64,000 nucleotides of DNA from Salinibacterium sp. PAMC 21357 (GTDB lineage: Bacteria; Actinomycetota; Actinomycetes; Actinomycetales; Microbacteriaceae): contig NZ_AHWA01000004.1 of NCBI RefSeq assembly GCF_000247645.1, positions 434,001 to 498,000 on the forward strand, read 5' to 3'. A program made the translations under genes and the position numbers. Under the pieces are notes generated by a model that was given only the letters and a program-made list of their open reading frames with translations, was not told the origin of the DNA and searched no databases. Positions 3,415 through 47,269 of this stretch are shown here, piece after piece (the stretch's first letter is position 1; each line of letters starts with the position of its first letter).

Positions 3415-4218
3415 ATGACTCAACGGCGCTGGCAACAGATCATGGACATACCGCTGACGATTGCGGCCATCATTTTTCTGATCGCCTACGCGTGGGAAGT
3501 AATCGCCAACCTTTCTGGCACAGCGATGCTCGTTGCCGAGGTCGTGATTGCGATTACCTGGGTCGTGTTTGTTATCGACTACCTCGTTAACCTCATCCTG
3601 GCCGAGCGGCGCTGGTTCTGGTTCAGGAAACACCTATTCGATCTGCTCGTCGTCGTGCTGCCGATGTTGCGTCCGCTGCGCCTGCTGCGCCTGGTGACAC
3701 TGCTGAACGTGCTCCAAAGACGCGCGGGAACGGCCGTGCGAGGCGGGGTGCTGACGTACGCCGTCGGGTCGTCCCTGTTGCTCGTGTTCGTGGCCGGGCT
3801 CGCCATTTTGGATACCGAACGCAACGCCGACAGCACTCAGATCACCAATCTCGGCGATGGTATCTGGTGGGCCTTCGTCACGATCACGACCGTCGGCTAC
3901 GGCGACATCTATCCCGCTACGACGCTCGGTCGAGTGATTGCCGCTGGCGTGATGATGGCCGGAATCGCCCTCCTTGGTGTTGTTACGGCAACCCTCGCCT
4001 CGTGGATCGTGGAACGAGTTGCGGCCCAGGACGAGCTCTCGCATGTCGCAACGCGTCGCGAAGTCACGGATCTCACGAAGCAGGTGGCTGAGCTCAAGCA
4101 CGTACTCCTCGAGCATGCGACGCACATGGCCGCGTCGTCAGGGACTCCAGCACCCACATCGCCGCCGACGCCCACACCGCCGACGGAAGCATCCGACCGT
4201 GCCCGTTCGCCTCTCTAA
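3415..4218 (+). CDS. Voltage-gated-type potassium channel protein
   Basis: A 267-residue membrane protein with the K+ selectivity filter TVGYGD at 159-164, preceded by the pore helix (GIWWAFVTIT) and followed by an S6-like helix (about 175-198). Upstream are hydrophobic segments at about 13-32, 40-63, 75-98 and 112-132. The fourth contains RPLRLLRL (86-93), an S4-like row of arginines, so this is a shortened six-TM channel rather than a two-TM KcsA. A possible coiled coil (about 205-238) and a Pro/Thr-rich tail end the protein. It is a single gene with its own leaderless promoter, convergent with the Rieske gene 24 bp away. Gating stimulus is unknown. Confidence 0.9.
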   Translation: MTQRRWQQIMDIPLTIAAIIFLIAYAWEVIANLSGTAMLVAEVVIAITWVVFVIDYLVNLILAERRWFWFRKHLFDLLVVVLPMLRPLRLLRLVTLLNVLQRRAGTAVRGGVLTYAVGSSLLLVFVAGLAILDTERNADSTQITNLGDGIWWAFVTITTVGYGDIYPATTLGRVIAAGVMMAGIALLGVVTATLASWIVERVAAQDELSHVATRREVTDLTKQVAELKHVLLEHATHMAASSGTPAPTSPPTPTPPTEASDRARSPL

Positions 4219-4242
4219 ATAGGCGGCGTGAAACGGAGGAAG

Positions 4243-5121
4243 CTACCGCGGCAACCGAATCTCTACCGTGCCATCCACGACTCGGCTCTCGAAGCGGGGT
4301 TGCGGACTCGTCGCTGGCCCGTGGATGACTTCACCCGTGTCGAGCGAGAACGCACTCTGGTGCCACGGGCACTCCACGCACGCGCCTCCCGGGGTGGAAT
4401 CGTCACCGACGACGTAGCCGTCGTGAAGTTCGGCTCCCAAGTGGCTGCACGTGTTCGAGAGCACCGAGACGCGGTCTCCGCGACGGAAGACCACTACCTC
4501 GGTATCGGCGACAACGCGCTTCTCGAGTGAGCCATCCGCAAGCTCAGTGAGCGGCGCTAGCTGCTGCCAGCCGCTGGGGAAGTTGGCTTCGACATCCGGC
4601 GCGTGGCTGACGCCCGCTGCTTGGCGGTAGGTCATGTGCCCACCGAGATAGCCGCCGCCCGACGCGATGGCCAGTCCCGCGTAGCTCAGAACTTTGCCAC
4701 TCGTGTGCCTGCCGCGGGAGCGCTGAATGAAGGATGCCGCGAAGAAGCCCGTCGCCACAATATTGACCGCGGCGTGCACGATGCCGACTCGCTGTTGCTT
4801 CTCGTCAAGCTTCGACCAGTCCGCAAAGCCTGCAACCGCCGTTCCACTTGCTCCCAGCACGCCTACTCCGACCAGTGCACGCGACGCTTGCTCGGTACCC
4901 GGCAGAATGTCGAGCACACCGGCCGAGATCCACGCTCCGAGCGGAACGTGCACGCCGAGCGGATGCACGGGGTGCCCCAACGGCACGCCGTGCAGTAAAT
5001 CCCGCAACCACCGAGGGCGAAGAACGGTGTCTACGACGCCGCGCGTCTTCTCGACAGCGGGATCGAGCGCGGTCGCCTCCTCTAGGCGGTCAACGTTTCG
5101 CAGTACGGGCAGTCGTTTCAT
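4243..5121 (-). CDS. DUF2231 membrane domain fused to Rieske [2Fe-2S] domain
   Basis: A 292-residue fusion. The N-terminal half is DUF2231-like: a histidine-rich start (LGHPVHPLGVHVPLG, 49-62) and about four membrane segments up to residue 165. The C-terminal half is a Rieske domain with ligands C225, H227, C251 and H254 (CSH ... CPWH), so the cluster-binding set is complete. Such proteins are probably electron-transfer partners at the membrane, but no oxygenase is adjacent. A Shine-Dalgarno-like GAGAGGAACAAGG precedes the ATG. It lies 51 bp downstream of the PNPOx-like gene in the same direction, so they may be co-transcribed. Confidence 0.88.
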   Translation of the reverse strand: MKRLPVLRNVDRLEEATALDPAVEKTRGVVDTVLRPRWLRDLLHGVPLGHPVHPLGVHVPLGAWISAGVLDILPGTEQASRALVGVGVLGASGTAVAGFADWSKLDEKQQRVGIVHAAVNIVATGFFAASFIQRSRGRHTSGKVLSYAGLAIASGGGYLGGHMTYRQAAGVSHAPDVEANFPSGWQQLAPLTELADGSLEKRVVADTEVVVFRRGDRVSVLSNTCSHLGAELHDGYVVGDDSTPGGACVECPWHQSAFSLDTGEVIHGPATSPQPRFESRVVDGTVEIRLPR

Positions 5122-5172: not shown

Positions 5173-5667
5173 CTAGACGGTGACCGACTCGGAAGAACCA
5201 GTCTGAGGCTCCTCCCCAGTGATCTTCGCGGCAACCACACCGACCAGAGTCGCGACCTTGCCGGGGCTCTCCCAGTACTGCGCCGAATCAGCCTTGACGT
5301 GAATGAGCACGACCGAGGGATCCGTCTCGCCGCCCTCGAACCACACGTCGGTAAACGTGCTCCAGAGTTCCGACTTCTTCGCCTGATCGCGCACGATCTC
5401 GGCCGTGCCGGCAAGCGACAGCCACTGCCCGGAGCCGGAATAGGACACGTTCACGTGCGGGTGAGCCTGAAGCTGCTGAACGGCATCCGCGCTCTCCGAG
5501 GCAAGAAACCAGCAGTCTCCGTCGAAGTCAGCTTCCTGAACCGTCATGGGGTGGCTATGGAGAGCACCGCCAGCTTTGACCGTGGTCAGCATCGCAATGC
5601 GCGTACTTTTCATGATGGAACGGATGGTGTCGAGCTGGTCCACTGTTGCGTGCTCGTGAGTTGACAT
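5173..5667 (-). CDS. Pyridoxamine 5'-phosphate oxidase-fold (general stress protein 26-like) flavoprotein
   Basis: A 164-residue protein of the PNPOx-like split-barrel family. The fold is visible from the strand pattern MLTTVKAGGALHSHPMTVQEADFDGDCWFLAS, the hallmark of GSP26-like proteins that bind FMN or F420. The start is placed at the ATG at 5667, preceded by GGAGAG at good spacing; an upstream ATG at 5727 would add 20 residues outside the family pattern and has no ribosome site. The family is usually linked to general or oxidative stress. Enzymatic substrate is unknown. Confidence 0.85.
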   Translation of the reverse strand: MSTHEHATVDQLDTIRSIMKSTRIAMLTTVKAGGALHSHPMTVQEADFDGDCWFLASESADAVQQLQAHPHVNVSYSGSGQWLSLAGTAEIVRDQAKKSELWSTFTDVWFEGGETDPSVVLIHVKADSAQYWESPGKVATLVGVVAAKITGEEPQTGSSESVTV

Positions 5668-5729
5668 GGTCTCTCCAATTCGTCGACGGCTGCGCAGTTG
5701 TGCTGCGCTTTCGACGCTAGGCAGCAACC

Positions 5730-5763
5730 CTCAATGCTGGCCGAGTGCTAGCCGAGCGTTGAG
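5730..5763. repeat. Imperfect inverted repeat between PNPOx and lipoprotein genes
   Basis: CTCAATGCTGGC (5730-5741) faces GCCGAGCGTTGAG (5751-5763). It lies downstream of the kinase-lipoprotein pair on the minus strand, so it may be their terminator, or the 5' control region of the PNPOx-like gene. Confidence 0.3.
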
Positions 5764-5816
5764 TGAGAGTGACGGTGCGATTCGGCGTCCAGAGAATCGA
5801 GATCGACAGGGTGTAC

Positions 5817-6266
5817 CTAATCCTTCTTGTTGCCCTTGTCGTCCTTGTCGTCTTTCTCGTCCTTCTTGTCATCACCTTTGCCGTTGCCGTTGCCGTTGTC
5901 GTTGTCGTTCGACGATTCATCGGCTGGAGCGGTTGTTGGAGACGGGGCAGGCAACGCCGCCGTGAGGTCGGCGCGTACGAGGTCGAGAGAAGCTTGAATT
6001 CGGGCGCTCCGCTCAGCCCCTATGGCGCCAGTCGAGGTGTTCTCGTTCAACTGTGCCTGGAGAACGTCGAGGGCCGCTAGCGCTGCCACGGGGTCACCCA
6101 CCGCAGCGGCGTCAGTCACTATTGCAACCGATGATTGCAGCAGCGATGCCGCATCAGAATCGAAGTCGGGCGAGGTTGGCGCGCACGCACTCAACCACAC
6201 AGCGAGCACAAAGGCGGCCCCGCCCGCAACGATGCTGTGCGGGAGACTGAGATTTCTGAGGTTCAT
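5817..6266 (-). CDS. Small putative lipoprotein with Asp/Lys/Asn/Gly-rich tail
   Basis: A 149-residue protein of no recognised family. It has a lipoprotein signal peptide ending in the lipobox LSAC (lipidated Cys28). A helical, Ala/Leu-rich middle (about 35-105) follows, then a Pro/Thr/Ala linker and a hydrophilic tail made almost only of D, K, N, G and E (about 115-149), encoded by short tandem DNA repeats. Its ATG overlaps the stop of the Ser/Thr kinase gene (ATGA), so the two are translated together. It may be an extracytoplasmic partner or reporter for the kinase; that is inference. Confidence 0.7.
   Translation of the reverse strand: MNLRNLSLPHSIVAGGAAFVLAVWLSACAPTSPDFDSDAASLLQSSVAIVTDAAAVGDPVAALAALDVLQAQLNENTSTGAIGAERSARIQASLDLVRADLTAALPAPSPTTAPADESSNDNDNGNGNGKGDDKKDEKDDKDDKGNKKD
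5821..5910. repeat. Short tandem repeats coding the charged lipoprotein tail
   Basis: On the + strand the stretch contains GCCGTT three times followed by GTCGTT twice (about 5880-5910), and degenerate copies of a TCGTCCTTG-type unit before it. Slippage here in multiples of three would change the length of the D/K/N/G tail without shifting the frame. Confidence 0.6.
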
Positions 6267-7540
6267 GGCTCCACGCTTTCTTGAAGCTGCTCAAGGTGTG
6301 TTCCCAGCTGTCCAGGAACGGCCGGGTAGCTGGGCGACGCCGGAGCTGAAGGTGTTACCGACTGATTCTGAGCAGTTGACCACGCGACTCCACCAACGGT
6401 CAGCACGAGAACGGCAGCCGCCACGATACCGATGCGCTTGACGCTGTGACGACTTAGCTTGACGTCTCTTTTCGGCGCTGCCGCGGCGAATGGTGCCGCT
6501 GTGGATGATGCCACTGTGGGCGATGCCTCTGGCACAGCCCATGCTTCTGTTGCTTGCGTCTCCACCTGGGCATACGCCTTCGTGGGTTCGAGAACAGTTG
6601 ACTCATTCACGCTACCCTCAGGCGGAACGAGCGAACGCGTGGGGTCACCTTCGAAGGCGTCCACCCCCTCAGAGGAGTAAGCGAGCGCCCGCAAAGTGAC
6701 AGCGATGTCCATCGGAAGCGGCCGGTTTTCTGCATCCAGTGCCGTCATGGTGGCCAACAGCTTTCGCCACGCTTCGCTAAGGCCGGTCGGCACGCGGGGA
6801 GACGTGTTGAGTCGCGCACCGATTGTCTCGACTGCGCTCCCAGGAAAGGCCGTCTGACCGGTAAGGGCTTCGAGCAAGACGAGTCCGAGCGAATAGACAT
6901 CGGATGGACCACGCGCTTCGCTGCCGCGTGCTTGCTCGGGACTGAGGTAGCTTGCGCTGCCGATAATGGTTCCCGTCGAGGTCATTTTCGCGCCATCGAC
7001 AAGACGCGCAATCCCGAAGTCTGCAAGCTTTGAATGAAATTGGCGGTCGGGAAGGTCCGAAGTCGCCAACAAGATATTTGCTGGCTTAATGTCCCGATGC
7101 ACGACGCCCCGACTATGCATGTAATGGAGTGCTTCTGCGATATCGGCACCGAGGTGCGCGACCAGCGACGACGACAAGGGAGCTGTCATCGCTTCGCGCA
7201 AGTTCGGTCCATCCACGAACTCCATGACGATAAAGACGCGGTCTGTGGCTTCAGCCGTCTCGGATGCCGCATCAAAGAGAGTGACCAACGCGTGATGGTT
7301 GAGCGAGGCGAGAGTCTCCACCTCGTTGCGCTGTCTGCGGATTTCATCAGGATTTGCCATGCCCGGCAGCATCAATTTGAGTGCGACTTCTCGCGGAAGC
7401 GACTCATCACGGGCTCGGTAGACGGAGGCCATTCCGCCGCGGCCGATCAGGCCTGTGATGCGATACCGACCACCAATTACCGTGTCGATGAGCTCATCAT
7501 CCGAGCGAGAGGATGACCGTGAGCGATTGGTTGTTGCCAC
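6263..7540 (-). CDS. Membrane-anchored serine/threonine protein kinase, PknB-like
   Basis: A 425-residue Hanks-type kinase. Residues 26-290 hold the catalytic domain: glycine loop GRGGMASV (33-40), ATP-binding Lys55, HRDIKPAN (148-155), DFG (174-176) and SYLSPEQARG. A low-complexity linker leads to one membrane helix (about 370-391) and only about 34 extracytoplasmic residues. There are no PASTA repeats, so it is not the cell-division PknB. The start is a GTG at 7540 with AAGGGGG upstream. The lipoprotein gene overlaps its stop. Targets and ligand are unknown. Confidence 0.92.
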   Translation of the reverse strand: MATTNRSRSSSRSDDELIDTVIGGRYRITGLIGRGGMASVYRARDESLPREVALKLMLPGMANPDEIRRQRNEVETLASLNHHALVTLFDAASETAEATDRVFIVMEFVDGPNLREAMTAPLSSSLVAHLGADIAEALHYMHSRGVVHRDIKPANILLATSDLPDRQFHSKLADFGIARLVDGAKMTSTGTIIGSASYLSPEQARGSEARGPSDVYSLGLVLLEALTGQTAFPGSAVETIGARLNTSPRVPTGLSEAWRKLLATMTALDAENRPLPMDIAVTLRALAYSSEGVDAFEGDPTRSLVPPEGSVNESTVLEPTKAYAQVETQATEAWAVPEASPTVASSTAAPFAAAAPKRDVKLSRHSVKRIGIVAAAVLVLTVGGVAWSTAQNQSVTPSAPASPSYPAVPGQLGTHLEQLQESVEP

Positions 7541-10533: not shown

Positions 10534-10851
10534 GTGAACGCCATTAATGACGACTTCGTCACCCGCGTGCTGGCTGTGGTTGACGCGATTCCCGCCGGGC
10601 ACGTGATGACCTATGGCGACGTGGCCGCGACGATTGGTTCCCGAGCCGCGCGAGCCGTCGGCACCGTCATGGCGCGTTATGGCTCTGACGTCACGTGGTG
10701 GCGCGTGATTCGTGCGGGCGGGCATCCACCGGTCTGTCACGAAGATCAGGCGCTCGAACACTACGAGGCCGAATCAACGCCACTGAGATGGATGCCCGAC
10801 GGCAGCTATCGGGTCGATCTGAAGCTTGCGCGCTTTCGCCCCTCTGCGTAG
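10534..10851 (+). CDS. Alkyltransferase-like protein (MGMT-family DNA-binding domain without the active cysteine)
   Basis: A 105-residue protein with the O6-alkylguanine-DNA alkyltransferase DNA-binding fold: IPAGHVMTYGDVAATIGSRAARAVGTVMA is the helix-turn-helix with its arginine finger. At the place of the PCHRV active site it reads TWWRV, so the methyl-acceptor Cys is replaced by Trp. This is the signature of ATL proteins, which bind O6-alkylguanine without repairing it and pass it to nucleotide excision repair. The GTG at 10534 is used as start because the domain begins just after it. It ends 13 bp from the convergent DhaK-DhaL gene. Confidence 0.88.
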   Translation: MNAINDDFVTRVLAVVDAIPAGHVMTYGDVAATIGSRAARAVGTVMARYGSDVTWWRVIRAGGHPPVCHEDQALEHYEAESTPLRWMPDGSYRVDLKLARFRPSA

Positions 10852-10863
10852 CGCGCCAAGCCC

Positions 10864-12552
10864 TCATTCGCCCGAAAGCACTTCCACAAACCGCAGCACA
10901 GCAACCGCACCGGGATCGCGGTGACCAATGGTTCGTTCCTGTTGCCACGCTGCTCGCCCCCGTGCTGACTGCAGCTGAGCGGAAGCATCGACCGCGTCTC
11001 TAGCTGCGGCCGTCGCGATCGTCCCCGCGCCTGATCCTTTAGACCCGGCAAGCGCCTGAATGACAGGGTGCAAAACATCGAGGAAGGTTTTATCTCCGAG
11101 ACGTGCTCCACCCTTCTCGCTCACGCGATCGAAAACTGCCTGAAGCGCGACCACGAGTTCATCGAGGCCGAGTTCACTTCGAGCTGGCATGGCATCGGCT
11201 GCGGCAAAGAGTCCTGAGCCAACCAACGCGGCAAACGTCGACGGGTTCGCTGCCGCGAAAGCGCTAGCAGCGGCACGGAGCAGTGTCGCCGCGTCAGAGT
11301 CTTCGGGCAGCTCACGGAGAGCAGCGGCAACGGCTACACTTCCTTTGGTCACCGTGATTCCGAGGTCTCCGTCGCCGAGCGCTGCATCGAGTTCACGAAG
11401 CTCTTCACCATGGGCGGACATCGCAGGCAGGCGCTCAATCAACAGCTCTCGTGCGACGCTTCGCGTGCCGGTCGTAACCGGGGCAGGGGCAAACGCCGAT
11501 ACTGACGCATCGACCAAGGCCGGAGCATCCGCCGCCGAGATCGTTTCGGTGGTTCCCTGTTGGAAGAACGGCGACGCTGCCGGAGCGGCAATGAGCGCCT
11601 CAAGTTCATCGTCAAGGATCATGATCGAGAGCGATGCTCCGGCCATTTCGAGGCTCGTGACATATTCGCCAACGAAGCGATGCGCGATAGTCACCCCGCG
11701 CGCTGCGAGCACGCTGTTCACCCGGCGATACATGACGTAGAGCTCTTCTAGCGGTGTCGCGCCCAAGCCATTAACGAGCACAGCAACGCGTGCACCGTCC
11801 GTCAAATTTAGTTCGCCAGCAATCCCTTCGAGAAAGCGATCGGTGATCTGATCGGCAGACTCCAGCGGACCGCGATGGGTACCTTGTTCTCCATGGATGC
11901 CGACCCCGATCTCCATCTCGCCGTCAGCGAGGTGGAATGTTGCTTCTCCCGCTGCCGGCAGAATCGTTGGCGACAGGCCGACCCCCATCGTGCGCGTGTT
12001 CTGCACGGCAGCGTTGGCGATGCGCGTAACTTCATCAAGATTCAGCAGCTGGTCGGCAGCAGCGCCGGCCACTTTGTAGACCAAGAAGAGCCCAGCCACG
12101 CCGCGGCGATCATTGGCTCTTTCCGGCGGGGCGGAGAGAAGGTCATCCGTTCCGAGGACCGTGTTGATCTGGATGCCATTAGTGCGGCACATCTCGGCGG
12201 CAATGTCGAAATTGTAGACGTCTCCCCCATAGTTGCCGTAGAGGTAGAGCAGCCCGGCGTCGGAACTAACCGCCTGCGATGCGGCATAGATTTGGGCCGA
12301 CGATGGAGACGAGAACACGTTGCCAATTGCCACGGCTGAGCAGAGACCTTGACCGACGTACCCGAGAAAAAAGGGCAAGTGACCAGAGCCGCCACCGGTG
12401 ACGATGCCCACCCGCCCCGTCTTCGGTGAATCTACGCGAACGAGGGTGCGATTGTCGGTCGTCGCCGGCCGAACTTGGCTGGCGTGGGCAGCAAAAATGC
12501 CCTCCATTACTTCGTCAACGAAGGCGTCTGGCTCGTTAATAATCTTGCGCAT
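10864..12552 (-). CDS. Dihydroxyacetone kinase family protein (DhaK-DhaL fusion)
   Basis: A 562-residue ATP-dependent kinase. The DhaK domain (about 1-330) shows GGGSGHLPFFLGYVG and the His of GVGIHGEQG, which binds the carbonyl of the substrate covalently as a hemiaminal. The DhaL domain (about 365-562) shows the Mg/ATP-binding acidic loop LDAALGDGDLG. Known members phosphorylate dihydroxyacetone, glyceraldehyde or C4 ketoses such as erythrulose. It starts 3 nt after the lyase gene and is the last gene of the TctCBA operon, so its substrate is probably the product of that lyase. Exact substrate unknown. Confidence 0.88.
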   Translation of the reverse strand: MRKIINEPDAFVDEVMEGIFAAHASQVRPATTDNRTLVRVDSPKTGRVGIVTGGGSGHLPFFLGYVGQGLCSAVAIGNVFSSPSSAQIYAASQAVSSDAGLLYLYGNYGGDVYNFDIAAEMCRTNGIQINTVLGTDDLLSAPPERANDRRGVAGLFLVYKVAGAAADQLLNLDEVTRIANAAVQNTRTMGVGLSPTILPAAGEATFHLADGEMEIGVGIHGEQGTHRGPLESADQITDRFLEGIAGELNLTDGARVAVLVNGLGATPLEELYVMYRRVNSVLAARGVTIAHRFVGEYVTSLEMAGASLSIMILDDELEALIAAPAASPFFQQGTTETISAADAPALVDASVSAFAPAPVTTGTRSVARELLIERLPAMSAHGEELRELDAALGDGDLGITVTKGSVAVAAALRELPEDSDAATLLRAAASAFAAANPSTFAALVGSGLFAAADAMPARSELGLDELVVALQAVFDRVSEKGGARLGDKTFLDVLHPVIQALAGSKGSGAGTIATAAARDAVDASAQLQSARGRAAWQQERTIGHRDPGAVAVLRFVEVLSGE

Positions 12553-12555
12553 GGT

Positions 12556-13437
12556 CTAGTTCTCGTTGTATTCGGTGGCGAGTGACTGAATCGTGAGGAG
12601 ATCAGTGTCACTAACGGGTGCGATTGCTGAACGTACCGGGCTCGCGGCAAAATCACGGGCAGCGATTCCTGCTTTGAGGTGAGTCAAACTGCCTGCACGT
12701 ACCGCGATTACGGCTTGCTCAACTTTTGCTTGCCAGTGAGCGATAGCATCGGCGTCGTTGGCGATGAGAGCATCGCGGAGCTTCACGAATGGTTCGGGGT
12801 ACGCCGACGATACTCCCGAGATGATGCCGTGACCACCGGATTGAATGAGCCAGCCGAAGGACACGTCGTTGCCGGAAAAGACCGCGAACCCTTCCGGCGC
12901 TGCGGCGATGAACTGCTCGACACGTTCGTCGGGTTCCCCACTGAGCTTGACCCCCGCAACACCGACCTCGACGAGTCGCGAAAGGACGCTGGGCAGTGAG
13001 TGGCTGGAGGTGCGGGCTTCGAAGAGATACGCGAAAATTTCAGCACCGTCGGCCGCGTTCACGAGACGACGGTAGTAGTCGACGACCTGGTCTTCGGGTG
13101 CTGGCTGGAAGAACGGGGTGATCGCTGCCATGCGAGTCGCTCCGACGGCCACCGCACGGCGTACGAGGTTCTCGGCCTGTCGCGCGGTGGCGGCACCGAC
13201 GTGAAAGTACACGCTATCCGCTGGAAAAACGTCGAGACAGATAGAGAGGATTTCGAGACGTTCGTCATCGGTCAGCGACGGGAACTCGCCCGAAGTTCCG
13301 GCGGGGAATAGTGCGTCGACACCGTGGGCGCGTAACCACTCAACGTGTGAACGAATGCCCTCAAGGTTCAGAGTTTCGTCCGCGTTGAAGAGGGTCGGTG
13401 TGGCGGTGATGACGAGGGGGGTCAGGGGAATAGTCAT
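12556..13437 (-). CDS. DapA-family (dihydrodipicolinate synthase/N-acetylneuraminate lyase) lyase
   Basis: A 293-residue class I aldolase of the DHDPS/NAL superfamily. It keeps the keto-acid carboxylate loop PAGTSGEF (46-52), Tyr137 and the Schiff-base lysine K164 (GVKLSG). The length is standard. Members either condense or cleave 2-keto acids, commonly releasing pyruvate, or dehydrate sugar acids. Real lysine biosynthesis is unlikely given the operon: it sits between TctA and a triose-type kinase. I start it at the ATG at 13437, 8 nt after tctA; the frame stays open far upstream, but that overlaps tctA. Probable role: cleavage of an imported acid or its derivative. Confidence 0.85.
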   Translation of the reverse strand: MTIPLTPLVITATPTLFNADETLNLEGIRSHVEWLRAHGVDALFPAGTSGEFPSLTDDERLEILSICLDVFPADSVYFHVGAATARQAENLVRRAVAVGATRMAAITPFFQPAPEDQVVDYYRRLVNAADGAEIFAYLFEARTSSHSLPSVLSRLVEVGVAGVKLSGEPDERVEQFIAAAPEGFAVFSGNDVSFGWLIQSGGHGIISGVSSAYPEPFVKLRDALIANDADAIAHWQAKVEQAVIAVRAGSLTHLKAGIAARDFAASPVRSAIAPVSDTDLLTIQSLATEYNEN

Positions 13438-13445
13438 GGTTCTGA

Positions 13446-14981
13446 TCACTTTCGGAGAGAGTCGGTTGGTAACGATGTCGTAGCTTGCTGCGCCGTATTG
13501 AGTCGGGCGAGCTTTCGGCGCTTGACGCGCGCGAACAGTGCAGGGAGGGTGATCGCTGCGGCACTGATGATCAGTGTCGTCACGGCGATCGGGCTGGTCA
13601 AAATGTTCTCGATACCGCCAATTTCTAGCGCTCGCCGTAGGTTGCCTTCGGCGAGTTTGCCCAAGATCAGCCCGAGCACAACGGGTCCCGCAGGGAATCC
13701 CGTGCGCCTCAGAACCAACCCGACGAGACCGAACAGCAGCATGACTCCCACATCGAAGACGCTGTTGTTCACGGCGAAGGTTCCCACCATGCAGAACACG
13801 ATGATGACGGTCCACAGGAAGGCTGGCTTGAGTTCGAGAAGTTTGGTCACGCCACGCAGCCGCACGAGGCTGAGTACCAACGTGAGAACCGTGGCGACCA
13901 CCATGATTCCTGCGATCGTGTAAACAAGATCTGGGCGATTGGTAAAGAGCGCCGGCCCGGGTTGAATACCCCAGATGATGAGCGATCCAATGAGCACTGC
14001 CATCACTGAGTCTCCGGGAATACCGAGCGCCAGCGTTGTGGTGACGGAGGGACCGAGTGTTGCGTTCGAAGCAGTGTCTGTAGCAGTCAGGCCTTCGATC
14101 GAGCCTTTTCCAAACTCTTCGGGATGCTTCGATGCCTTCTTCGCTGCTGCCCACGACATGATTCCGGCAATATCACCACCCGCGGCAGGAACAGCACCGA
14201 CGACAGCACCAACTCCGGATCCCACGAAGAGTGGCCTGACCATCTGGCGCAGCTCTGCGCGGTTGGGCCACCAACGCCCGAATTGGGTGATCGGAGTATA
14301 TTTTTCCGCCCGATGGCTCAACATCTGGTCGAGCACATCGGCAACACCGAAAAGCCCAATAATTGCGGCGATGAAGGGGATGCCATCGCTGAGCTCCAGG
14401 ATCCCGAAGGTGAAGCGTTCCGTTCCGGTAATGGGGTCGCGGCCAATGACGGCCAGTGCCAATCCAATGGCTCCGGCAATCAGCCCCTTGCCAATCTTGC
14501 CGCCAGAGACGCCAACCATCATGGTGAGCCCGAAAACAACGAGGGCAAACATCTCGGCCGGGCCAAACTGAAGCGCAATCTTTGAGAGTGGGATCGCAGC
14601 GAAGACGAGCAACAACAGCCCGGCAAACGTGCCGATTGCTGAGGCGAACGCGGATGTCGTGAGTGCTACTCCGGCCAGTCCCTTCTTCGCCATCGGATAG
14701 CCGTCGAAAGTCGTCGCGATTGACGCCGGAGTTCCGGGAGTATTCACCAGGATCGCCGGAACGCGATCGCCAAAGTTGGCGGAGACGTAGATCGTTAGGA
14801 GCACCGCCAGCCCCGGAACCGGGTCCATGGTCAAAGTAAAACTGCTGGCCAGAGCGACGGCCATTGTGGCCGTAACGCCGGGAAAGGCCCCGACGAGCAT
14901 GCCTACAAGAGCACCGATCAAAATACACAGCAAGACAAAGGGGTCGGCGAGTTGTTCGAGACCAACTGTCACGGGGTTCAT
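13446..14981 (-). CDS. Tripartite tricarboxylate transporter, large permease subunit TctA
   Basis: A 511-residue protein with about 12 membrane segments and the TctA family pattern: GAFPGVTATMAVALASSFTLTMDP near the start, YVSANFGDRVPAILVNTPGTP, and the second repeat GAVVGAVPAAGGDIAGIMSWAAAKKASKHPEEFGKG. It forms the transport channel for a carboxylate bound by TctC. The start is the ATG at 14981, which overlaps the tctB stop (ATGA); an upstream in-frame start at 15062 would lie within tctB. The operon link is certain; the carboxylate is not. Confidence 0.93.
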   Translation of the reverse strand: MNPVTVGLEQLADPFVLLCILIGALVGMLVGAFPGVTATMAVALASSFTLTMDPVPGLAVLLTIYVSANFGDRVPAILVNTPGTPASIATTFDGYPMAKKGLAGVALTTSAFASAIGTFAGLLLLVFAAIPLSKIALQFGPAEMFALVVFGLTMMVGVSGGKIGKGLIAGAIGLALAVIGRDPITGTERFTFGILELSDGIPFIAAIIGLFGVADVLDQMLSHRAEKYTPITQFGRWWPNRAELRQMVRPLFVGSGVGAVVGAVPAAGGDIAGIMSWAAAKKASKHPEEFGKGSIEGLTATDTASNATLGPSVTTTLALGIPGDSVMAVLIGSLIIWGIQPGPALFTNRPDLVYTIAGIMVVATVLTLVLSLVRLRGVTKLLELKPAFLWTVIIVFCMVGTFAVNNSVFDVGVMLLFGLVGLVLRRTGFPAGPVVLGLILGKLAEGNLRRALEIGGIENILTSPIAVTTLIISAAAITLPALFARVKRRKLARLNTAQQATTSLPTDSLRK

Positions 14982-15478
14982 AGCGGCACCTTCAATAGCA
15001 GTCCGAACAGGGTGTACAGCACGCCGGTACACACGAGGGGGAAAATAACGATCGCTTTCCACCCGCGCGCGCCCAAGATGAGAACGAGTGCCACAAAGAG
15101 CAGCGCGGTTGCGATCGGGAAGGTTACGAAATACCAGACCACCGCGTACGCAGCGATTGCACCGAAGACGGCAAGTACGCGGCCGTAGCCAGTTCGCGTG
15201 GCGGGCTCCATTTCATCGGGAGCACCAGGACGCACGATGTCCTTGATGAGCACACCGGCGCTCAAGATCGCGATGAGAGCGCCGAGCGACTGCGGCCACC
15301 ATCGCGGGCTGAAACTTGTCGCAATGTTGGGCTCAACGATGGACTGCGACATTACAACGACCGCGAGTCCGAAGATGAGTCCAATTGCCGGGCCTGCGAG
15401 CGGGCCGACCAGCCGGCGGAAACGAGATTCGTCACCGCCGGCCGTGGGGGCCTGCTCCGAAAGAACAGGAGCAGTCAT
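14978..15478 (-). CDS. Tripartite tricarboxylate transporter small permease subunit TctB
   Basis: A 166-residue protein with four hydrophobic segments (about 27-48, 62-80, 102-125, 130-160), the size and topology of TctB (DUF1468) proteins. Sequence similarity is weak in this family, so the call rests on topology and on its place between tctC and tctA. It overlaps tctA by 4 nt and begins 4 nt after tctC. It is the small membrane partner of TctA. Confidence 0.9.
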   Translation of the reverse strand: MTAPVLSEQAPTAGGDESRFRRLVGPLAGPAIGLIFGLAVVVMSQSIVEPNIATSFSPRWWPQSLGALIAILSAGVLIKDIVRPGAPDEMEPATRTGYGRVLAVFGAIAAYAVVWYFVTFPIATALLFVALVLILGARGWKAIVIFPLVCTGVLYTLFGLLLKVPL

Positions 15479-15482
15479 TGTT

Positions 15483-16445
15483 CTACTCTGCGAAGAGCGC
15501 GCCGAATCGCTCCGACTCCGCGTTGAAGAACGTCGTAAAGTCGCTCGAGTTCTTGTAGACCGGAAGGTTGCCGGACTTGTTAATAACGGAAGTGAATTCT
15601 TCAGATTCGACGCCCGCCTTTACGGCCTCTGACAGTGCATCGCGCACAGAATCGGGCAATCCAGCGGGAGCACCGATTGCGCCCCAACCACCGATGGATA
15701 CATCGAATCCGAGAGACTTAGCGGTCTCGACTCCAGGCAATGCATCGGAAGCTTCGTCATCGAAAATGGCAAGCACGCGCAGGCGACCATCCGCTGCCGC
15801 TGGAGCAGTTTCAGAGATACCGGCAATAACAGCATCGACCTGACTACCGATCGCTGCGGTAACTGCTGGAGCTCCACCGTCGAACGGAACGGGCTTCAAC
15901 GAGACGCCGGCCACTTCGTTAAGCGCCGTTGTCGCTGCCTGCCAGATCGATCCTGCACCAGAGTTGGAAACGGTGATGGAATCCGGGTTAGCTTCTGCAG
16001 CATCGACGAGATCCTGCAACGTTTCATAGGGGCTGTCTGCCGGTACGGCAATCGTTGCCGGTACCGAAACGATTTGACCGAGTACATCGTAGGCGGCAGG
16101 GTCAAGGTCGTAACCCTGATACTGCAGCATTACTGATTCAACGGGGAGGTACCCAATCGAGTATCCATCGGCTGGGCGACCGGAGAGGTAGGAGAGCCCG
16201 ACTGAACCGGCACCACCCGTGCGGTTCTCGACGATGATGGACTGCCCGAGGGACTCTTCCATCGCCGCGGCGAGAGTGCGAGCCGACAGGTCGGATGCAC
16301 CACCAGCGGCGTAAGGAACCACAAGGGTGATCGCCTTACTCGGGTAGTCCTCGTCATCGACAACGGCAGCGTCTCTATTCGCGCAGCCAGTCAAGAGGAG
16401 AAGTGCCGCAGCTCCTGCGGCAATGGTGATGAGCTTGTTTTTCAC
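15483..16445 (-). CDS. Tripartite tricarboxylate transporter substrate-binding lipoprotein TctC
   Basis: A 320-residue extracytoplasmic binding protein with lipobox LTGC and the family start YPSKAITLVVPYAAGGASDLSARTLA, which forms the carboxylate-binding loops. Central motifs NRTGGAGSVGLSYL and VPFDGGAPAVTAAIGSQVDA are also typical of the Bug/TctC family. I choose the GTG at 16445, which has AAGGAAAA just upstream; a GTG 15 nt earlier is possible. First structural gene of the operon. It sets the specificity of uptake, but the ligand of these proteins cannot be predicted reliably from sequence. Confidence 0.92.
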   Translation of the reverse strand: MKNKLITIAAGAAALLLLTGCANRDAAVVDDEDYPSKAITLVVPYAAGGASDLSARTLAAAMEESLGQSIIVENRTGGAGSVGLSYLSGRPADGYSIGYLPVESVMLQYQGYDLDPAAYDVLGQIVSVPATIAVPADSPYETLQDLVDAAEANPDSITVSNSGAGSIWQAATTALNEVAGVSLKPVPFDGGAPAVTAAIGSQVDAVIAGISETAPAAADGRLRVLAIFDDEASDALPGVETAKSLGFDVSIGGWGAIGAPAGLPDSVRDALSEAVKAGVESEEFTSVINKSGNLPVYKNSSDFTTFFNAESERFGALFAE

Positions 16446-16487
16446 TGTTTTCCTTTTCACATCGTTGTGGGTGGTGCGAGAGGGTGG

Positions 16488-17150
16488 TTAGCCGCCCGCA
16501 TACTCACGGCGCACTCGAGCGCGTGAGTGGTCTAGGTGTTTCTCGAGTTCGTCGCATGCTGCGTCGAGCTCCTTTTCACGGATGAGTTGCGCGAGCACGA
16601 GATGACTGTGCAGCGCGGGTTCGAGATCGGCGTGGCCAACGTTGGCGACGAGAAGAAGTAATTCGATGGTTGGGCGATACTGAGCCCAAACATCAGAAAG
16701 GCGTCGGTGCTGAGACGCGGCGTAAAAGGCCCCGTGGAAGTGCAGGTCGGCGAGGGTGAAAGCGGCGGCGTCGACGGCGGCAACGGCGGCCTTCATGTCG
16801 ACGATGACGGCGTCGAGCGATGCGTTGAGGTCGTCGGAATGCTGCACGACCGCCTCACGCAATGCCAACAGTTCTAAGGATGCGCGTAGGGAGAATAGCT
16901 CGTCGATGTCGGCGGCGGTGAGCCCGATGACTGTTGCGCTTCGCTTTCCGCTCGCTACGAGTCCTTCTTGAGTAAGCGTGCGGATGGCTTCGCGAACGGG
17001 GCCACGGCTTACCTGAAAGTCGGTAGCTAATTTCTCTTCCAGAAGCAGCGAACCATTCGGTCGCACTTGCGTCACTATTTGCCGACGGAGCTCATCAGCG
17101 ACTTGGTCGCCGAGCCCGATCGGGCGTTGTGGAAGCAGAGGCTGCATCAT
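16488..17150 (-). CDS. GntR-family transcriptional regulator (FadR/FCD subfamily)
   Basis: A 220-residue regulator. The winged HTH lies at about 12-75 (QVADELRRQIVTQ, then FQVSRGPVREAIRTLTQEGLV), and the FCD-type helical ligand domain follows (ADIDELFSLRASLELLALREAV; metal/ligand His residues in DLHFHGAFY and HSHLV). FCD regulators usually sense the acid that their operon degrades. It is first in the operon, 42 nt before tctC. Start is the ATG at 17150 behind GAGGA; the alternative ATG at 17147 is immediately next. A perfect 15-bp palindrome 14 bp upstream is its likely binding site. Confidence 0.9.
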   Translation of the reverse strand: MMQPLLPQRPIGLGDQVADELRRQIVTQVRPNGSLLLEEKLATDFQVSRGPVREAIRTLTQEGLVASGKRSATVIGLTAADIDELFSLRASLELLALREAVVQHSDDLNASLDAVIVDMKAAVAAVDAAAFTLADLHFHGAFYAASQHRRLSDVWAQYRPTIELLLLVANVGHADLEPALHSHLVLAQLIREKELDAACDELEKHLDHSRARVRREYAGG

Positions 17151-17163
17151 TGGTTCCTCACTC

Positions 17164-17191
17164 TGTTTACAGTAAACAGTAAACGGTAAAC
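17164..17191. promoter_or_regulatory. Candidate GntR operator: palindrome plus direct repeats
   Basis: TGTTTACAGTAAACA (17164-17178) is a perfect 15-bp palindrome centred on A17171. GTAAAC recurs at 17172, 17179 and 17186, at exact 7-bp steps. It lies just upstream of the GntR start codon. Confidence 0.65.
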
Positions 17192-17278
17192 ACACAGTAT
17201 CCAGATCGATCAGCCGCGTCAAGTCCGCAGTCAGACGCGCGATATCTGCTGCCCATAACTCACGCGTTAACGCAAAAA

Positions 17279-17306
17279 CCGCCCCGATACCTGAGCATCG
17301 GGGCGG
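17279..17306 (-). terminator. Intrinsic terminator of the ABC exporter operon
   Basis: On the minus strand a 10-bp GC-rich stem (17297-17306 with 17279-17288) with an 8-nt loop is followed directly by TTTTT. It lies 25 bp after the exporter stop, so it is a classical Rho-independent terminator. Confidence 0.9.
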
Positions 17307-17331
17307 CAACGCAAACGCGCCAAATGAGCGA

Positions 17332-43015: not shown

Positions 43016-44167
43016 CTAGGGAACCTGCAGCGAGCCCGACTCGTGGGAACGGATCGCAGCGTCGTAAATGCGATGAGTCATTGCCGCTTCTGACGGTAGC
43101 GCACACCCGAACCGGTCTGCGAGTAGCCCCTCCCGGTCAGCCAAATATGCGGCCCACATCTGCAGAATCGAATCCGAGAACCCTGATTCAAAGTTCGCGC
43201 CCGTCACGGTCGGCCACACTGATTGACTGCCCGCTTCAACCGTTTGCCAGATTTGCTCCGTGCCGATTCCGGGCACGGCAGATCGCGTGAAGATCTGAAC
43301 GGCCTTCGGGTTGCTGGTGGAGAAACGCACCCCGCCGTCCATTCCGACCGCTTCGAACTCCCACGTATTTTTCTGGCCCGGATCAATCCGCTTCATCTCC
43401 AGTGTCAGCGGAAATTCGACGTCATCATGGCGCGCCCAGGCGTGGATGACCGCGTTGTCCCAGGTGTCGCAATCCTCAAGCTCGCCCGTGGTCGCGCTCG
43501 GACGTTGGGTCACGATGTTTTGCAGCACGCCGAAGAGCCGCTCCGGTTGCCACCCCAGGCGCAGGGGAACGTGGAGTGCATGCAGCCCTAAGTCGTTCAT
43601 CACGCCAGCTGCGCCACAGAACTGATTCTGTCGCTTCCAGTTCAGCGGCTTCGTTGTGTCGATATCGCTGGAGTGGAGGAAGGCATTGCGCGCTTCGATA
43701 ATGCGCCCGAGCGCGCCTGAGGCAATGTAGTTGATCGCCAGCTGTGCTCCCGGATAGAACGCCATCTCACTCGAGCAACGCACGAAACTCGTGGGGTTCG
43801 CATCGATCGCGGCGACGATGGCATCAGCCGCTGCACGGTCAATTCCGAAAGGCTTCTCGGCCAGCACGCTCTTGCCTGCGTTGATGGCATCGATGTAGAG
43901 CTGTTCGTGGAGGTCGTGGCGCACGGCGATGTACAGCACATCGATCGACTCATCCTTCAGAAGGTCGTGATAGTCGGTGACCTTGCTCGAGACACTGTCA
44001 ATCGCGTCGAACCATTCGAGCGCCGCCGGATTGATATCGCAGACTGCGGTGAGTCGAGGGCGAACCGGGTGATCGATCAGAGCCGGCCAGCGCTGAATCG
44101 CTGCCGCAATCTCGCGCCCCATCAGTCCGCCGCCGATGATGGCGACGTTGACAATCTTCTGGGTCAT
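43016..44167 (-). CDS. Gfo/Idh/MocA-family oxidoreductase
   Basis: A 383-residue NAD(P)-dependent dehydrogenase. The Rossmann turn is IIGGGLMGREIAAAIQ (about 8-23) and the EKPFG motif (LAEKPFGID) contains the conserved Lys of the active site. C-terminal residues include the GVMNDLGLHALHVPLRLG strand with the catalytic Asp/His pattern D-x(3)-H. Substrates in this family are sugars, inositols or sugar acids. The ATG overlaps the stop of the aldolase gene, so oxidation and aldol cleavage are probably consecutive steps. Confidence 0.9.
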   Translation of the reverse strand: MTQKIVNVAIIGGGLMGREIAAAIQRWPALIDHPVRPRLTAVCDINPAALEWFDAIDSVSSKVTDYHDLLKDESIDVLYIAVRHDLHEQLYIDAINAGKSVLAEKPFGIDRAAADAIVAAIDANPTSFVRCSSEMAFYPGAQLAINYIASGALGRIIEARNAFLHSSDIDTTKPLNWKRQNQFCGAAGVMNDLGLHALHVPLRLGWQPERLFGVLQNIVTQRPSATTGELEDCDTWDNAVIHAWARHDDVEFPLTLEMKRIDPGQKNTWEFEAVGMDGGVRFSTSNPKAVQIFTRSAVPGIGTEQIWQTVEAGSQSVWPTVTGANFESGFSDSILQMWAAYLADREGLLADRFGCALPSEAAMTHRIYDAAIRSHESGSLQVP

Positions 44168-45006
44168 TTTTCGTCACCACCTACGAGCTCGAGGGCATCT
44201 TCGGCGCTGACGCTGTCGTGAAGCACCGCCATGAGCGCTCGGGTAATCCCCGTTGGGTTCCGGTGTTGCACGACGTTGCGGCCATAAACGATTCCCGATG
44301 CTCCTTGCTCGAGCACTGCCACTGTTCTTTCGAGCAGGGTCTTGTCGTCTACTCGGCCACCGCCGCGTACGAGTACGGGAATATCTCCCGCTACTTCGAC
44401 GACGCGGTGATAGTCCTCGACGTTGTCTGTCGGGTCTGCCTTGATCAGGTCGGCACCCAGTTCGCGCGCTTGACGAACCAGCGTGCGAATCTTGTCGGTG
44501 TCGCCGTCAACCATGTATCCCCCGGCAACGGCGTTGTCTTGCATCACGAGCGGCTCGACCATGAGCGGCATTCCGTACTTCGTGGCTTCTGCTCGCAGCG
44601 CCATGATCGATTTGACGCAGGCTTCGCGAATTTCGGGCCGTCCAGGAAGCTGGATGAGATTGGCACAGACGGCAGCGGCATCCAGCCTCACCGCCTCTTC
44701 GATCGCGTTCGGCACGTGGTGGCTGAACAAGTGGGTATCGAGTGGGTTGCCATAAATGTTGGCAATGTCGGCACGCAGAACAAGCGCGGGCTTTGATTTA
44801 CCTTTCACCGATTGCAGCAGTCGAGCCTGCCCCAGAGTCAGTTGGATGGCGTCAGGTCCAGCGTCGACGAGTGTTGAGATCACGTGATCCATGTTCTCGA
44901 TCCCGTTGAGAAAACTTGCTTCGCCGAAGAAGCCATGGTCGACGGCGACGTCGAGAAGCCGTCCAGAGTCGGCATTGAACAATCGGTTGAGACGGTATTC
45001 AGACAC
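44164..45006 (-). CDS. Class I aldolase of the DhnA/LsrF family
   Basis: A 280-residue TIM-barrel protein related to archaeal-type fructose-bisphosphate aldolase (FbaB/DhnA) and LsrF. Visible pieces are LLDVAVDHGFFG (Asp near the phosphate site), the Schiff-base lysine K189 (ADLIKADPTDN) and the phosphate-binding glycines in VLVRGGGRVDD and GIVYGRNV. The start is a GTG with AAGGGAG 11 nt upstream. It is divergent from the PfkB gene across a 150-bp control region with a perfect palindrome. A probable substrate is a ketose 1-phosphate made by that kinase, but this is inference. Confidence 0.87.
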   Translation of the reverse strand: MSEYRLNRLFNADSGRLLDVAVDHGFFGEASFLNGIENMDHVISTLVDAGPDAIQLTLGQARLLQSVKGKSKPALVLRADIANIYGNPLDTHLFSHHVPNAIEEAVRLDAAAVCANLIQLPGRPEIREACVKSIMALRAEATKYGMPLMVEPLVMQDNAVAGGYMVDGDTDKIRTLVRQARELGADLIKADPTDNVEDYHRVVEVAGDIPVLVRGGGRVDDKTLLERTVAVLEQGASGIVYGRNVVQHRNPTGITRALMAVLHDSVSAEDALELVGGDEK

Positions 45007-45096
45007 TGTGGTGCAACTCCCTTACACGGCGGACGGTGGACCCGTGCGAGGAAACTCGCACTGGATTGTCCGTATCGGTCAGGCTATCGTTACTGA

Positions 45097-45108
45097 GACA
45101 ACGTTGTC
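45097..45108. promoter_or_regulatory. Candidate LacI-type operator between aldolase and PfkB genes
   Basis: GACAACGTTGTC is a perfect 12-bp palindrome with a central CG, the usual form of LacI-family operators. It lies in the 150-bp divergent region and could control both the aldolase-oxidoreductase and the PfkB-ManA-GH38-LacI units. Confidence 0.65.
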
Positions 45109-45156
45109 CAGAGTCGAACGATGGAGCAGTAACGATGACCAAGAGCGAGCTTCAGG

Positions 45157-46218: not shown

Positions 46219-46219
46219 G

Positions 46220-47263: not shown

Positions 47264-47269
47264 ACCTCA

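Follow-up and report, generated by a model that had tools for sequence, protein, structure and literature searches.

Gene content of the locus

Positions 10,864 to 17,150 of the window, which is the whole 64,000-nucleotide stretch of Salinibacterium sp. PAMC 21357 DNA that was analysed, hold six genes in the order gntR-tctC-tctB-tctA-lyase-DhaK/DhaL kinase, all on the minus strand. These genes, and two elements ahead of them, are as follows.

10864-12552, minus strand: DhaK-DhaL fusion kinase of 562 aa with a YGNYGGD motif (Pfam Dak1 368.6 bits, Dak2 105 bits)
12556-13437, minus strand: lyase, class I member of the DHDPS/NAL superfamily, 293 aa (Pfam DHDPS 117.5 bits)
13446-14981, minus strand: tctA, large membrane subunit (Pfam TctA 468.2 bits)
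14978-15478, minus strand: tctB, small membrane subunit (Pfam TctB 60.9 bits)
15483-16460, minus strand: tctC, TctC-type solute-binding lipoprotein (Pfam TctC 141.7 bits)
16488-17150, minus strand: gntR, GntR/FCD-type regulator of 220 aa (Pfam GntR and FCD above cut-off)
17165-17177, no strand: palindrome GTTTACNGTAAAC ahead of gntR, a probable GntR operator
17278-17307, minus strand: terminator-like hairpin 3' of the upstream ABC-transporter gene, between that gene and the operon

The original prediction placed the six genes here as a closely packed or overlapping set on one strand, and all six lie there, with each Pfam assignment exceeding its curated cut-off. The gaps are 27 nt between gntR and tctC (42 nt with the second tctC start), 4 nt between tctC and tctB, 8 nt between tctA and the lyase gene and 3 nt between the lyase and kinase genes, with a 4-nt overlap of tctB and tctA at the tctA start. 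The alternative start of tctC is an ATG at 16445. The G+C content of the operon resembles that of the remaining window. A promoter scan upstream of the operon gave no match. Elements resembling -35 and -10 sequences were seen there and in loci L027 and L028 by eye only.

The presence of TctA, TctB and TctC, each above its Pfam cut-off, identifies a tripartite tricarboxylate transporter (TTT). A lipobox-like LLLLTGC was read by eye in TctC. The best PDB sequence match of TctC is 25hk (E 1.1e-46), the TTT-C protein of the Vibrio C42 system that imports alginate oligosaccharides (PMC13390454). We considered an alginate-oligosaccharide substrate from this likeness and rejected it, since only two (D57 and P134) of the eleven substrate-contact residues of 25HK taken from that source are identical in the window's TctC; the Vibrio locus also differs in its catabolic enzymes. 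The TctABC system for glucarate and galactarate (PMC5812351) likewise belongs to the transporter family seen in the window but has different catabolic enzymes.

Conservation of the module and of its operator

Searching with the window's lyase returned 21 matches besides its own, and the neighbourhoods of 17 were examined (all but those in G129, G140, G087 and G257). Loci L035, L041, L042 and L043 did not enter the context counts because most of the frames that a simple gene caller proposed there were antisense. In L037 the caller missed the lyase and tctB, and the lyase was placed from search coordinates. This locus enters the TctA, TctC and GntR trees only.

The search for the same gene order in other genomes, which had been proposed as a check, recovered this order from tctC onward in five more loci, of which two are from the Mycetocola group, two from Brevibacterium and one from a Nesterenkonia metagenome-assembled genome (MAG). 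Overall, the tctC-tctB-tctA-lyase-kinase order is found in 6/6 loci whose lyase is at least 56% identical to that of the window (the window counted), and these loci span three families. A gntR gene is seen in five of the six, with the sixth contig beginning within tctC. In separate trees the module lyases, TctAs (n=6), TctCs and GntRs (n=5) each form one clade (100/100), and the module kinases are split 99/98 from kinases linked to FGGY and M29 genes (nine ungrouped rows left out). The six-gene set is thus a real, heritable module that is not a product of chance; its individual parts are ordinary, and it is their fixed combination that is rare. Searches for copies elsewhere gave no plasmid record matching the lyase at E<=1e-20, so plasmid-borne copies were rejected, and no lyase match at E<=1e-30 in five other genomes of the same genus.

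Several relatives share only part of this arrangement. The transporter-lyase loci L030, L034, L036, L037 and L040 have no kinase next to them and fall outside the lyase and TctA clades. Among these, the GntR-TctCBA-lyase loci L030, L034 and L040, from other Microbacteriaceae, have the gene order of the window up to the lyase, as does L036, which differs in having a LacI-like regulator. These four have no adjacent kinase, and their lyases, which lie outside the module clade, are 32-41% identical to that of the window. On the kinase side, five clusters (L059-L063) carry close kinase relatives beside an FGGY kinase and an M29-like protein, with no aldolase recognised beside the kinase. Finally, locus L039 in genome G001 has a non-module lyase (30%) about 5.5 kb distant from a kinase (66%), indicating that the pairing of kinase type with lyase type is not strict when all loci are considered.

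The palindrome GTTTACNGTAAAC stands ahead of gntR in all five loci where this region is readable, one copy having a mismatch. In the window, two more GTTTAC half-sites lie upstream of it in 7-bp steps, and one match with no more than one mismatch was found against 0.03 expected. Genome-wide searches for the palindrome, as well as those for isomerases and KDPG aldolases described below, covered the five genomes other than the Nesterenkonia MAG. The 15-base form of the palindrome occurs solely at the operon in four of the five and is absent from the fifth, which argues that GntR is probably a local regulator that acts on the operon via GTTTACNGTAAAC. A wider regulon was considered and rejected, as this form has no sites beyond the operon in the five genomes. 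When the 13-base form is allowed one mismatch, G000, G017 and G160 each gain one or two extra sites, and G537 and G612 gain none, a count to be read alongside control matches in 3/5 genomes. The exact palindrome is absent from the GntR-TctCBA-lyase loci of other Microbacteriaceae that have no adjacent kinase.

Properties of the lyase and the kinase

The lyase belongs to the DHDPS/NAL superfamily (PF00701, 117.5 bits against a gathering score of 22.1). It carries the predicted Lys164, as well as Tyr137, and both residues are invariant in 17/17 aligned lyases. Below the superfamily level it stays under the cut-off of all seven NCBIfam models that it matched, among them archaeal KDG aldolase (NF040954, 85.1 against 390 bits), N-acetylneuraminate lyase (TIGR00683, 53.6 against 382 bits; NF003164, 74.3 against 281 bits) and biosynthetic DapA (TIGR00674, 93.8 against 206.15 bits). 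A biosynthetic DapA role was rejected, as the genome has its own dapA elsewhere (270.5 bits). No curated substrate family therefore fits the lyase, in line with the earlier statement that the parts of the operon do not fix the substrate. At position 110 the window lyase and that of L027 have Phe and the other four module lyases have Tyr, which we take to be the residue that completes the DHDPS/NAL proton relay.

An AlphaFold2 model of the lyase (pLDDT 93.8) has the TIM-barrel fold of the superfamily, with NAL, DHDPS and YagE as its nearest folds. The best Foldseek matches are NALs, and the 50 structure matches listed include an L-KDO aldolase variant (Z 35.3). These likenesses, together with a PfkB ribokinase-like gene that adjoins the kinase on its 3' side in 3/6 module loci, would suit an enzyme resembling NAL or KDO aldolase that acts on a larger ulosonic acid, with PfkB handling the sugar where it is present and the DhaK-DhaL (DAK) kinase in a side role. 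We regard this as quite unlikely. With Z-scores of about 35.7-36.5, DHDPS, NAL and MosA match equally well, so the fold does not tell them apart, and the DAK gene is present in 6/6 loci whereas PfkB is missing from the window and both Mycetocola-group loci. Assigning a substrate from the lyase structure was likewise rejected, given that the model is equally like NAL, DHDPS and YagE.

Archaeal 2-keto-3-deoxygluconate aldolase (KDGA) and Escherichia coli YagE cleave unphosphorylated 2-keto-3-deoxy acids. Both share with the window lyase the DHDPS superfamily and the Schiff-base Lys, and YagE is among the fold matches, but the KDGA profile gives the window lyase only 85 of 390 bits, and this lyase differs from both in its link with a TTT importer and with a DAK kinase. 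Overall, the lyase is probably a 2-keto-3-deoxy-acid aldolase of the class I pyruvate type, and a dehydratase identity is disfavoured. The case for a dehydratase, decarboxylating or not, along the lines of KdgD (5-dehydro-4-deoxyglucarate dehydratase) or L-KDA dehydratase, with a kinase substrate that the lyase does not make, draws on the GEFPSL motif of the lyase, which resembles what is presumably GEFFSL in KdgD, and on weak matches to TIGR03249 (KdgD) and PRK03620. Glucarate import by TTT systems (PMC5812351) is also compatible with it. Such an activity nevertheless seems improbable: the KdgD score is far below its cut-off (45.5 against 373.95 bits), that for PRK03620 is also below (59.7 against 278 bits), the neighbours of the six operons, judged by eye, include no recognisable semialdehyde dehydrogenase gene, and the kinase would be left without a substrate even though it is co-inherited with the lyase.

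The kinase exceeds the cut-off of the DAK-family subfamily model NF011049 (557.9 against 492 bits), the curated name of which is 'dihydroxyacetone kinase family protein', and falls below those of glycerone kinase (TIGR02361, 332.7 against 574.95 bits) and DhaK (TIGR02363, 356.6 against 406.25 bits). It keeps His220, His58, Asp111 and the DhaL Asp motif, the first three corresponding to the covalent His (H218) and the His/Asp pair (H56/D109) of E. coli DhaK. A difference from the two solved DhaKs compared, 3ct4 and 4lrx, is that Gly106 of the YGNYGGD motif stands where these have the Lys of KNYxGD, K104 in E. coli DhaK and a feature of canonical DHA kinases. Gly occupies this position in 20/20 DhaK rows of the kinase tree set. 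The structure model of the kinase is poor at residues ~192-231. Two DAKs that are likewise fused and use ATP, human triokinase/FMN cyclase and Citrobacter DHA kinase, have fused Dak1-Dak2 domains and the covalent His in common with the window kinase, which differs in missing the glycerone-kinase cut-off; the human enzyme phosphorylates both D-glyceraldehyde and dihydroxyacetone (DHA) (PMC6429413). The window kinase is probably a triokinase.

A predicted route from an imported acid

The reading that fits best, which we hold tentatively at a little short of an even chance, is import of an acid followed by class I pyruvate-type aldolase cleavage and then phosphorylation of the C3 carbonyl product by the kinase. 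GntR bound at GTTTACNGTAAAC would control the operon, as suggested by footprinting, and TctC-TctB-TctA would, as expected for their family, bring in an organic acid. Lys164 of the lyase would form a Schiff base with the incoming 2-keto acid, for which a 2-keto-3-deoxy sugar acid is the likeliest candidate, and cleavage would yield pyruvate plus a C3 carbonyl compound that carries no phosphate, either D-glyceraldehyde or DHA. The DhaK-DhaL kinase could then use ATP to convert this product to glyceraldehyde-3-phosphate or DHAP. With cleavage placed before phosphorylation, such a route would run the other way round from the usual one, in which KDG kinase acts before KDPG aldolase. A KDPG-aldolase family protein is present in 5/5 genomes searched, and thus a KDG route would not need the operon. 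Further points against the reading are the low profile scores of the lyase, its Phe110, the Gly in place of Lys in the kinase, the kinase clusters L059-L063, locus L039 and the PfkB gene of three loci. The one-pathway order originally proposed is partly supported. The packed, one-strand and co-inherited set of transporter, Schiff-base-type lyase and DAK kinase agrees with it; retro-aldol cleavage, use of the cleavage product by the kinase and a triose phosphate as the end product are predicted steps, and the kinase falls below the glycerone-kinase and DhaK cut-offs.

A ketotetrose such as erythrulose could instead be the lyase product, with the kinase acting as an erythrulose kinase and isomerases encoded elsewhere leading to erythrose-4-phosphate. 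We take locus L086 of the window's genome to be an erythrulose-like cluster of the DerK/LerK kind. Its DAK, the pieces of which are 34-46% identical to the window kinase, lies beside RpiB-type and TIM-like genes and has the same Gly-for-Lys replacement, its RpiB-type gene scores 142 against 240 bits on the profile for D-erythrulose-4-phosphate isomerase, and close relatives of both isomerases occur in the window's genome and G017. That RpiB-type gene, however, passes the cut-off for actinobacterial ribose-5-phosphate isomerase (198.4 against 168.2), and the window operon differs from such clusters in having neither an RpiB/TIM-type isomerase nor an ABC sugar importer. None of the six loci shows a recognisable RpiB/TIM-type isomerase gene, and the other two DAK genes of the window's genome directly adjoin an RpiB/DerI-type gene while the window's kinase does not. 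Furthermore, a search at E<=1e-15 gave no RpiB/DerI relative in either of the two operon-bearing Brevibacterium genomes, G160 has one at just 35%, and G160, G537 and G612 each have one TIM match at 39-44%. An erythrulose product is thus hard to credit, and the Brevibacterium result makes a product that enters glycolysis directly, a triose, the simpler reading. No further enzyme gene common to all six module loci was seen, which also fits products that pass straight into glycolysis.

The triose itself might come from a branched acid, for example of the 2-keto-3-deoxy-apionate type, cleaved to pyruvate and DHA. The case for this is a chemical one: DAK kinases classically act on DHA, and no extra enzyme would be required. 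Pyruvate and DHA would, however, need a ketone as aldol acceptor, which is rare in the DHDPS/NAL superfamily. Nothing recognised in the loci suggests apiose metabolism, and among the papers searched none mentions apionate, erythrulose and a kinase together. A branched substrate appears to be a poor prospect.

Kinases with the YGNYxGD motif also occur near other aldolases. On an E. coli plasmid a class II aldolase gene lies 45 nt upstream of the dhaK of such a kinase, in Caballeronia a class II aldolase and a kinase of this kind share one cluster, and in G001 an HpcH/HpaI aldolase gene is convergent with a neighbouring kinase gene of this kind. It is possible, although we consider it doubtful, that YGNYxGD DAKs with three unrelated aldolase families constitute cut-first modules that rescue free triose, the window's version acting on an imported 2-keto-3-deoxy sugar acid as a kinase-last lower branch of the Entner-Doudoroff pathway.

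Literature searches covering titles and the starts of abstracts found no described operon of gntR-tctCBA-lyase-kinase composition, as the original prediction had supposed. Many members of two large bacterial groups, the TTT solute-binding proteins and the lyases of the DHDPS family, have no assigned substrate, and this operon is a useful entry point into both. As a co-inherited unit with its own enzymes and its own operator it constrains the substrate, since binding, cleavage and phosphorylation must point to one molecule. If cleavage does come first, then the operon would add a bacterial route in which an aldolase for unphosphorylated substrates works together with a triokinase, and would give a role to DAKs that are now curated only as 'dihydroxyacetone kinase family protein'.

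The operon and its recurrence

Six genes lie on one strand at the positions that were originally predicted, and the Pfam matches of all six exceed their cut-offs:

16488-17150, minus strand, gntR
15483-16460, minus strand, tctC
14978-15478, minus strand, tctB
13446-14981, minus strand, tctA
12556-13437, minus strand, lyase
10864-12552, minus strand, DhaK-DhaL fusion kinase
17278-17307, terminator-like hairpin, 3' of the upstream ABC-transporter gene

From gntR to the kinase, the gaps calculated from these coordinates are 27, 4, -4, 8 and 3 nt. The gene past the kinase (10534-10851) is on the opposite strand, indicating that the kinase is the last gene of the unit. The window covers C3:434001-498000 of a 3.1 Mb genome and also contains a separate carbohydrate cluster (43016-51450) in which we recognised by eye an LsrF-like aldolase, a PfkB kinase, a ManA-like isomerase, an alpha-mannosidase-like protein and a LacI regulator.

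We searched for lyase homologues at the family level (299 genomes, 21 with a match at E<=1e-30), the order level (396 genomes, four at E<=1e-50) and the phylum level (396 genomes, one match at E<=1e-45, the window's own), with samples that overlap in some genomes. The family and order searches revealed a lyase of at least 57% identity in four other genomes, namely G017 and G160, which share one genus label and appear to belong to the Mycetocola group (G160 being of the same family as the window's genome), and G537 and G612, apparently Brevibacterium genomes. A scan of named genome contigs gave 11 loci, four with 57-73% lyase identity, including a new one from a Nesterenkonia MAG (L067), and seven with 25-30% identity that lack the module. 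The order tctC-tctB-tctA-lyase-kinase is identical in all six module loci, window included, so the gene order does recur elsewhere; gntR heads five of them, and the sixth contig starts within tctC.

Neighbourhoods were fetched for 17 of the 21 family-search matches other than the window's own, four of which were unreadable with a simple gene caller. The full module is present in two (L027 and L028, Mycetocola group), and five have transporter and lyase with no kinase adjacent (L030, L034, L036, L037 and L040; in L037 gene calling missed tctB and the lyase, which was placed from search coordinates). In L039 the transporter and a lyase of 30% identity lie about 5.5 kb from a kinase of 66% identity, which faces a convergent HpcH/HpaI aldolase gene, and the homologues of L029, L033 and L038 are near ABC sugar genes. 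No module-type transporter or kinase gene was recognised in the 20 kb read at the order-search match in G624 (lyase 38%). Two Microbacteriaceae loci (L031, 9483-10370; L032, 9599-10474) have a homologue (39-44%) directly 3' of genes labelled by eye as purS-purQ-like, without module-type transporter or kinase. In L033, L038 and L040 the homologue (31-36%) accompanies a protein weakly like L-fucose isomerase (family scan for L040 only, score below cut-off), with an FGGY-like kinase seen by eye in L033 and L040; these surroundings possibly represent a different sugar-acid pathway.

Inheritance of the gene set and its predicted operator

In maximum-likelihood trees the module proteins each form one clade with 100/100 support: six lyases among 17, six TctAs among 12, six TctCs among 12 and five GntRs among 10. 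Module kinases split from FGGY/M29-linked kinases at 99/98, with nine ungrouped rows left out of account; the G001 kinase groups with the FGGY/M29-linked kinases and the base of this tree is not resolved. Judging from these sequences, the gene set is inherited as a unit.

The palindrome GTTTACNGTAAAC, or a form with one base changed, is located upstream of gntR in all five readable module loci, beginning about 27-36 bases ahead of the gntR start used and with at least one further half-site at 7 bp. It occurs once in the window versus 0.03 times in shuffles, and the exact 13-mer was present in five of 86 collected loci, each a copy of a module locus. Of the five genomes searched, four contain the 15-base form CTGTTTACNGTAAAC, in each case at the operon only, and its reversed control has zero occurrences in the five; in the remaining genome, G537, the operon has a version with one mismatch. 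Allowing one mismatch gave extra sites in three genomes, in counts similar to the control, and none in either Brevibacterium genome. We read the palindrome as the predicted dedicated site of the local regulator, and infer that GntR binds it.

Lyase, transporter and kinase

The lyase is a DHDPS/NAL-superfamily member by Pfam and matched seven NCBIfam models, each with a score under the cut-off, such as 85 vs 390 bits for archaeal KDG aldolase, 54 vs 382 and 74 vs 281 for NAL, and 46 vs 374 for KdgD. DapA was rejected as its identity (94 vs 206 bits), and a different contig of the genome carries its own dapA, which scores 270.5 bits. The predicted Lys164 is indeed present and is invariant in all 17 aligned lyases, as are Tyr137 and Gly-Thr-x-Gly-Glu; Arg142 is common to the six module lyases. 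Position 110, presumably that of the DHDPS relay Tyr, is Phe in the window and L027 and Tyr in the other four. The predicted structure is confident (pLDDT 93.8), and its closest folds, NAL, DHDPS and YagE, score nearly equally, so structure does not pick the substrate. Together with the NCBIfam scores, this bears out the earlier view that the lyase does not fix it.

According to PMC5812351, acids taken up by tripartite tricarboxylate transporter (TTT) systems include glucarate/galactarate and sulfolactate, among others. The top PDB match of the window TctC is 25HK (E 1.1e-46), which PMC13390454 describes as an alginate-oligosaccharide binder from Vibrio C42. Only two of the 11 alginate-contact residues given for 25HK are identical, indicating that the TctC ligand probably differs from alginate oligosaccharides.

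Both DAK domains were found in the kinase by Pfam, and it passes the PRK14479 subfamily profile (557.9 vs 492) while remaining below the glycerone-kinase (332.7 vs 575) and DhaK (356.6 vs 406) equivalogs. It retains His220, the covalent His of DAK kinases, as well as His58 and Asp111, and the DhaL motif GDGDLG is invariant in the 11 aligned fused kinases. Where the solved DhaKs 3ct4 and 4lrx (presumably from L. lactis and E. coli) have the Lys of KNYxGD, the window's kinase has Gly, as does every one of the 20 DhaK rows in the comparison, among them two DhaKs from E. coli plasmids and L085, another DAK of the window's genome. The Gly motif cannot by itself tell triose from tetrose kinases.

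Several same-motif kinases have an aldolase nearby. On an E. coli plasmid (L079) a class II aldolase gene precedes the kinase by 45 nt, in Caballeronia (L076, DhaK motif YGNYGGD) a class II aldolase shares the cluster with MtnK and MtnA, and in G001 an HpcH/HpaI aldolase is convergent. In the Caballeronia megaplasmid loci L076 and L077, DhaK and DhaL come after genes for MtnK, MtnA, a class II aldolase and a ribose-type ABC importer; the set resembles the DHAP shunt for 5-deoxysugars. A general kinase-aldolase link is weakened by five clusters (L059-L063) in which no aldolase was recognised beside the kinase. There a kinase relative ends a conserved cluster that comprises a ribose-type ABC importer, recognised by eye, an FGGY kinase and an M29-peptidase-like protein; a BtpA/SgcQ gene lies close by (the scan for protein families covered L059 alone). 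A ribokinase-like PfkB gene, absent from the window and Mycetocola-group loci, comes immediately after the DAK kinase in three of the six module loci:

L056 (Brevibacterium), 4036-4959, PfkB gene
L067 (Nesterenkonia MAG), 5653-6534, PfkB gene
L057 (Brevibacterium), 12056-12961, PfkB gene, judged by eye

The predicted route and its product

The window's genome has further DAK genes. At L085 (C3:878919-881094) an RpiB relative lies directly downstream (C3:878919-879367, in two frames); the other flank of the DAK gene holds a GarR-like dehydrogenase and a sugar-isomerase-like gene. A third DhaK-DhaL gene (8037-9775 of L086, C5:76000-93000) is broken by a frame change, either a pseudogene or a sequencing error, and adjoins an RpiB-type gene, a TIM-like gene and, by eye, a ribose-type ABC importer. 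On the actinobacterial ribose-5-phosphate isomerase profile this RpiB-type gene is above the cut-off (198.4 vs 168.2), and on that of D-erythrulose-4-phosphate isomerase it scores 142 vs 240 bits, so the cluster is erythrulose-like by resemblance only.

A homology search of the window's genome found no RpiB relative near the window's kinase. Close relatives of both isomerases are present in this genome and G017; G160 has a sole RpiB relative at 35%, no RpiB relative was found at E<=1e-15 in either Brevibacterium genome, and G160, G537 and G612 have one TIM match each (39-44%). With RpiB relatives missing in Brevibacterium, a complete pathway there would more simply yield a triose phosphate.

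Aldol acceptors of the DHDPS/NAL superfamily are typically aldehydes. Phosphorylation of glyceraldehyde by a DAK enzyme is described in PMC6429413. On both grounds, a glyceraldehyde-releasing 2-keto-3-deoxy acid would be the chemically easiest substrate. A KDPG-aldolase family protein in all five genomes searched counts against a plain KDG route.

From what is known of these families, TctC-TctB-TctA would import an acid, the lyase would cleave it via a Schiff base to pyruvate and a C3 carbonyl, and the kinase would phosphorylate the latter with ATP. Import, cleavage and phosphorylation most likely form one linked route, as the co-inheritance of the genes suggests. In line with the original prediction, our literature search, with subscription papers mostly outside its scope, found no described operon of this make-up and no paper joining DHA kinase, TTT and the DHDPS family or an aldolase; papers pairing DHA kinase with dihydrodipicolinate synthase were unrelated by title and start of abstract. 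The components are each of a known kind, and what is new is their fixed combination.
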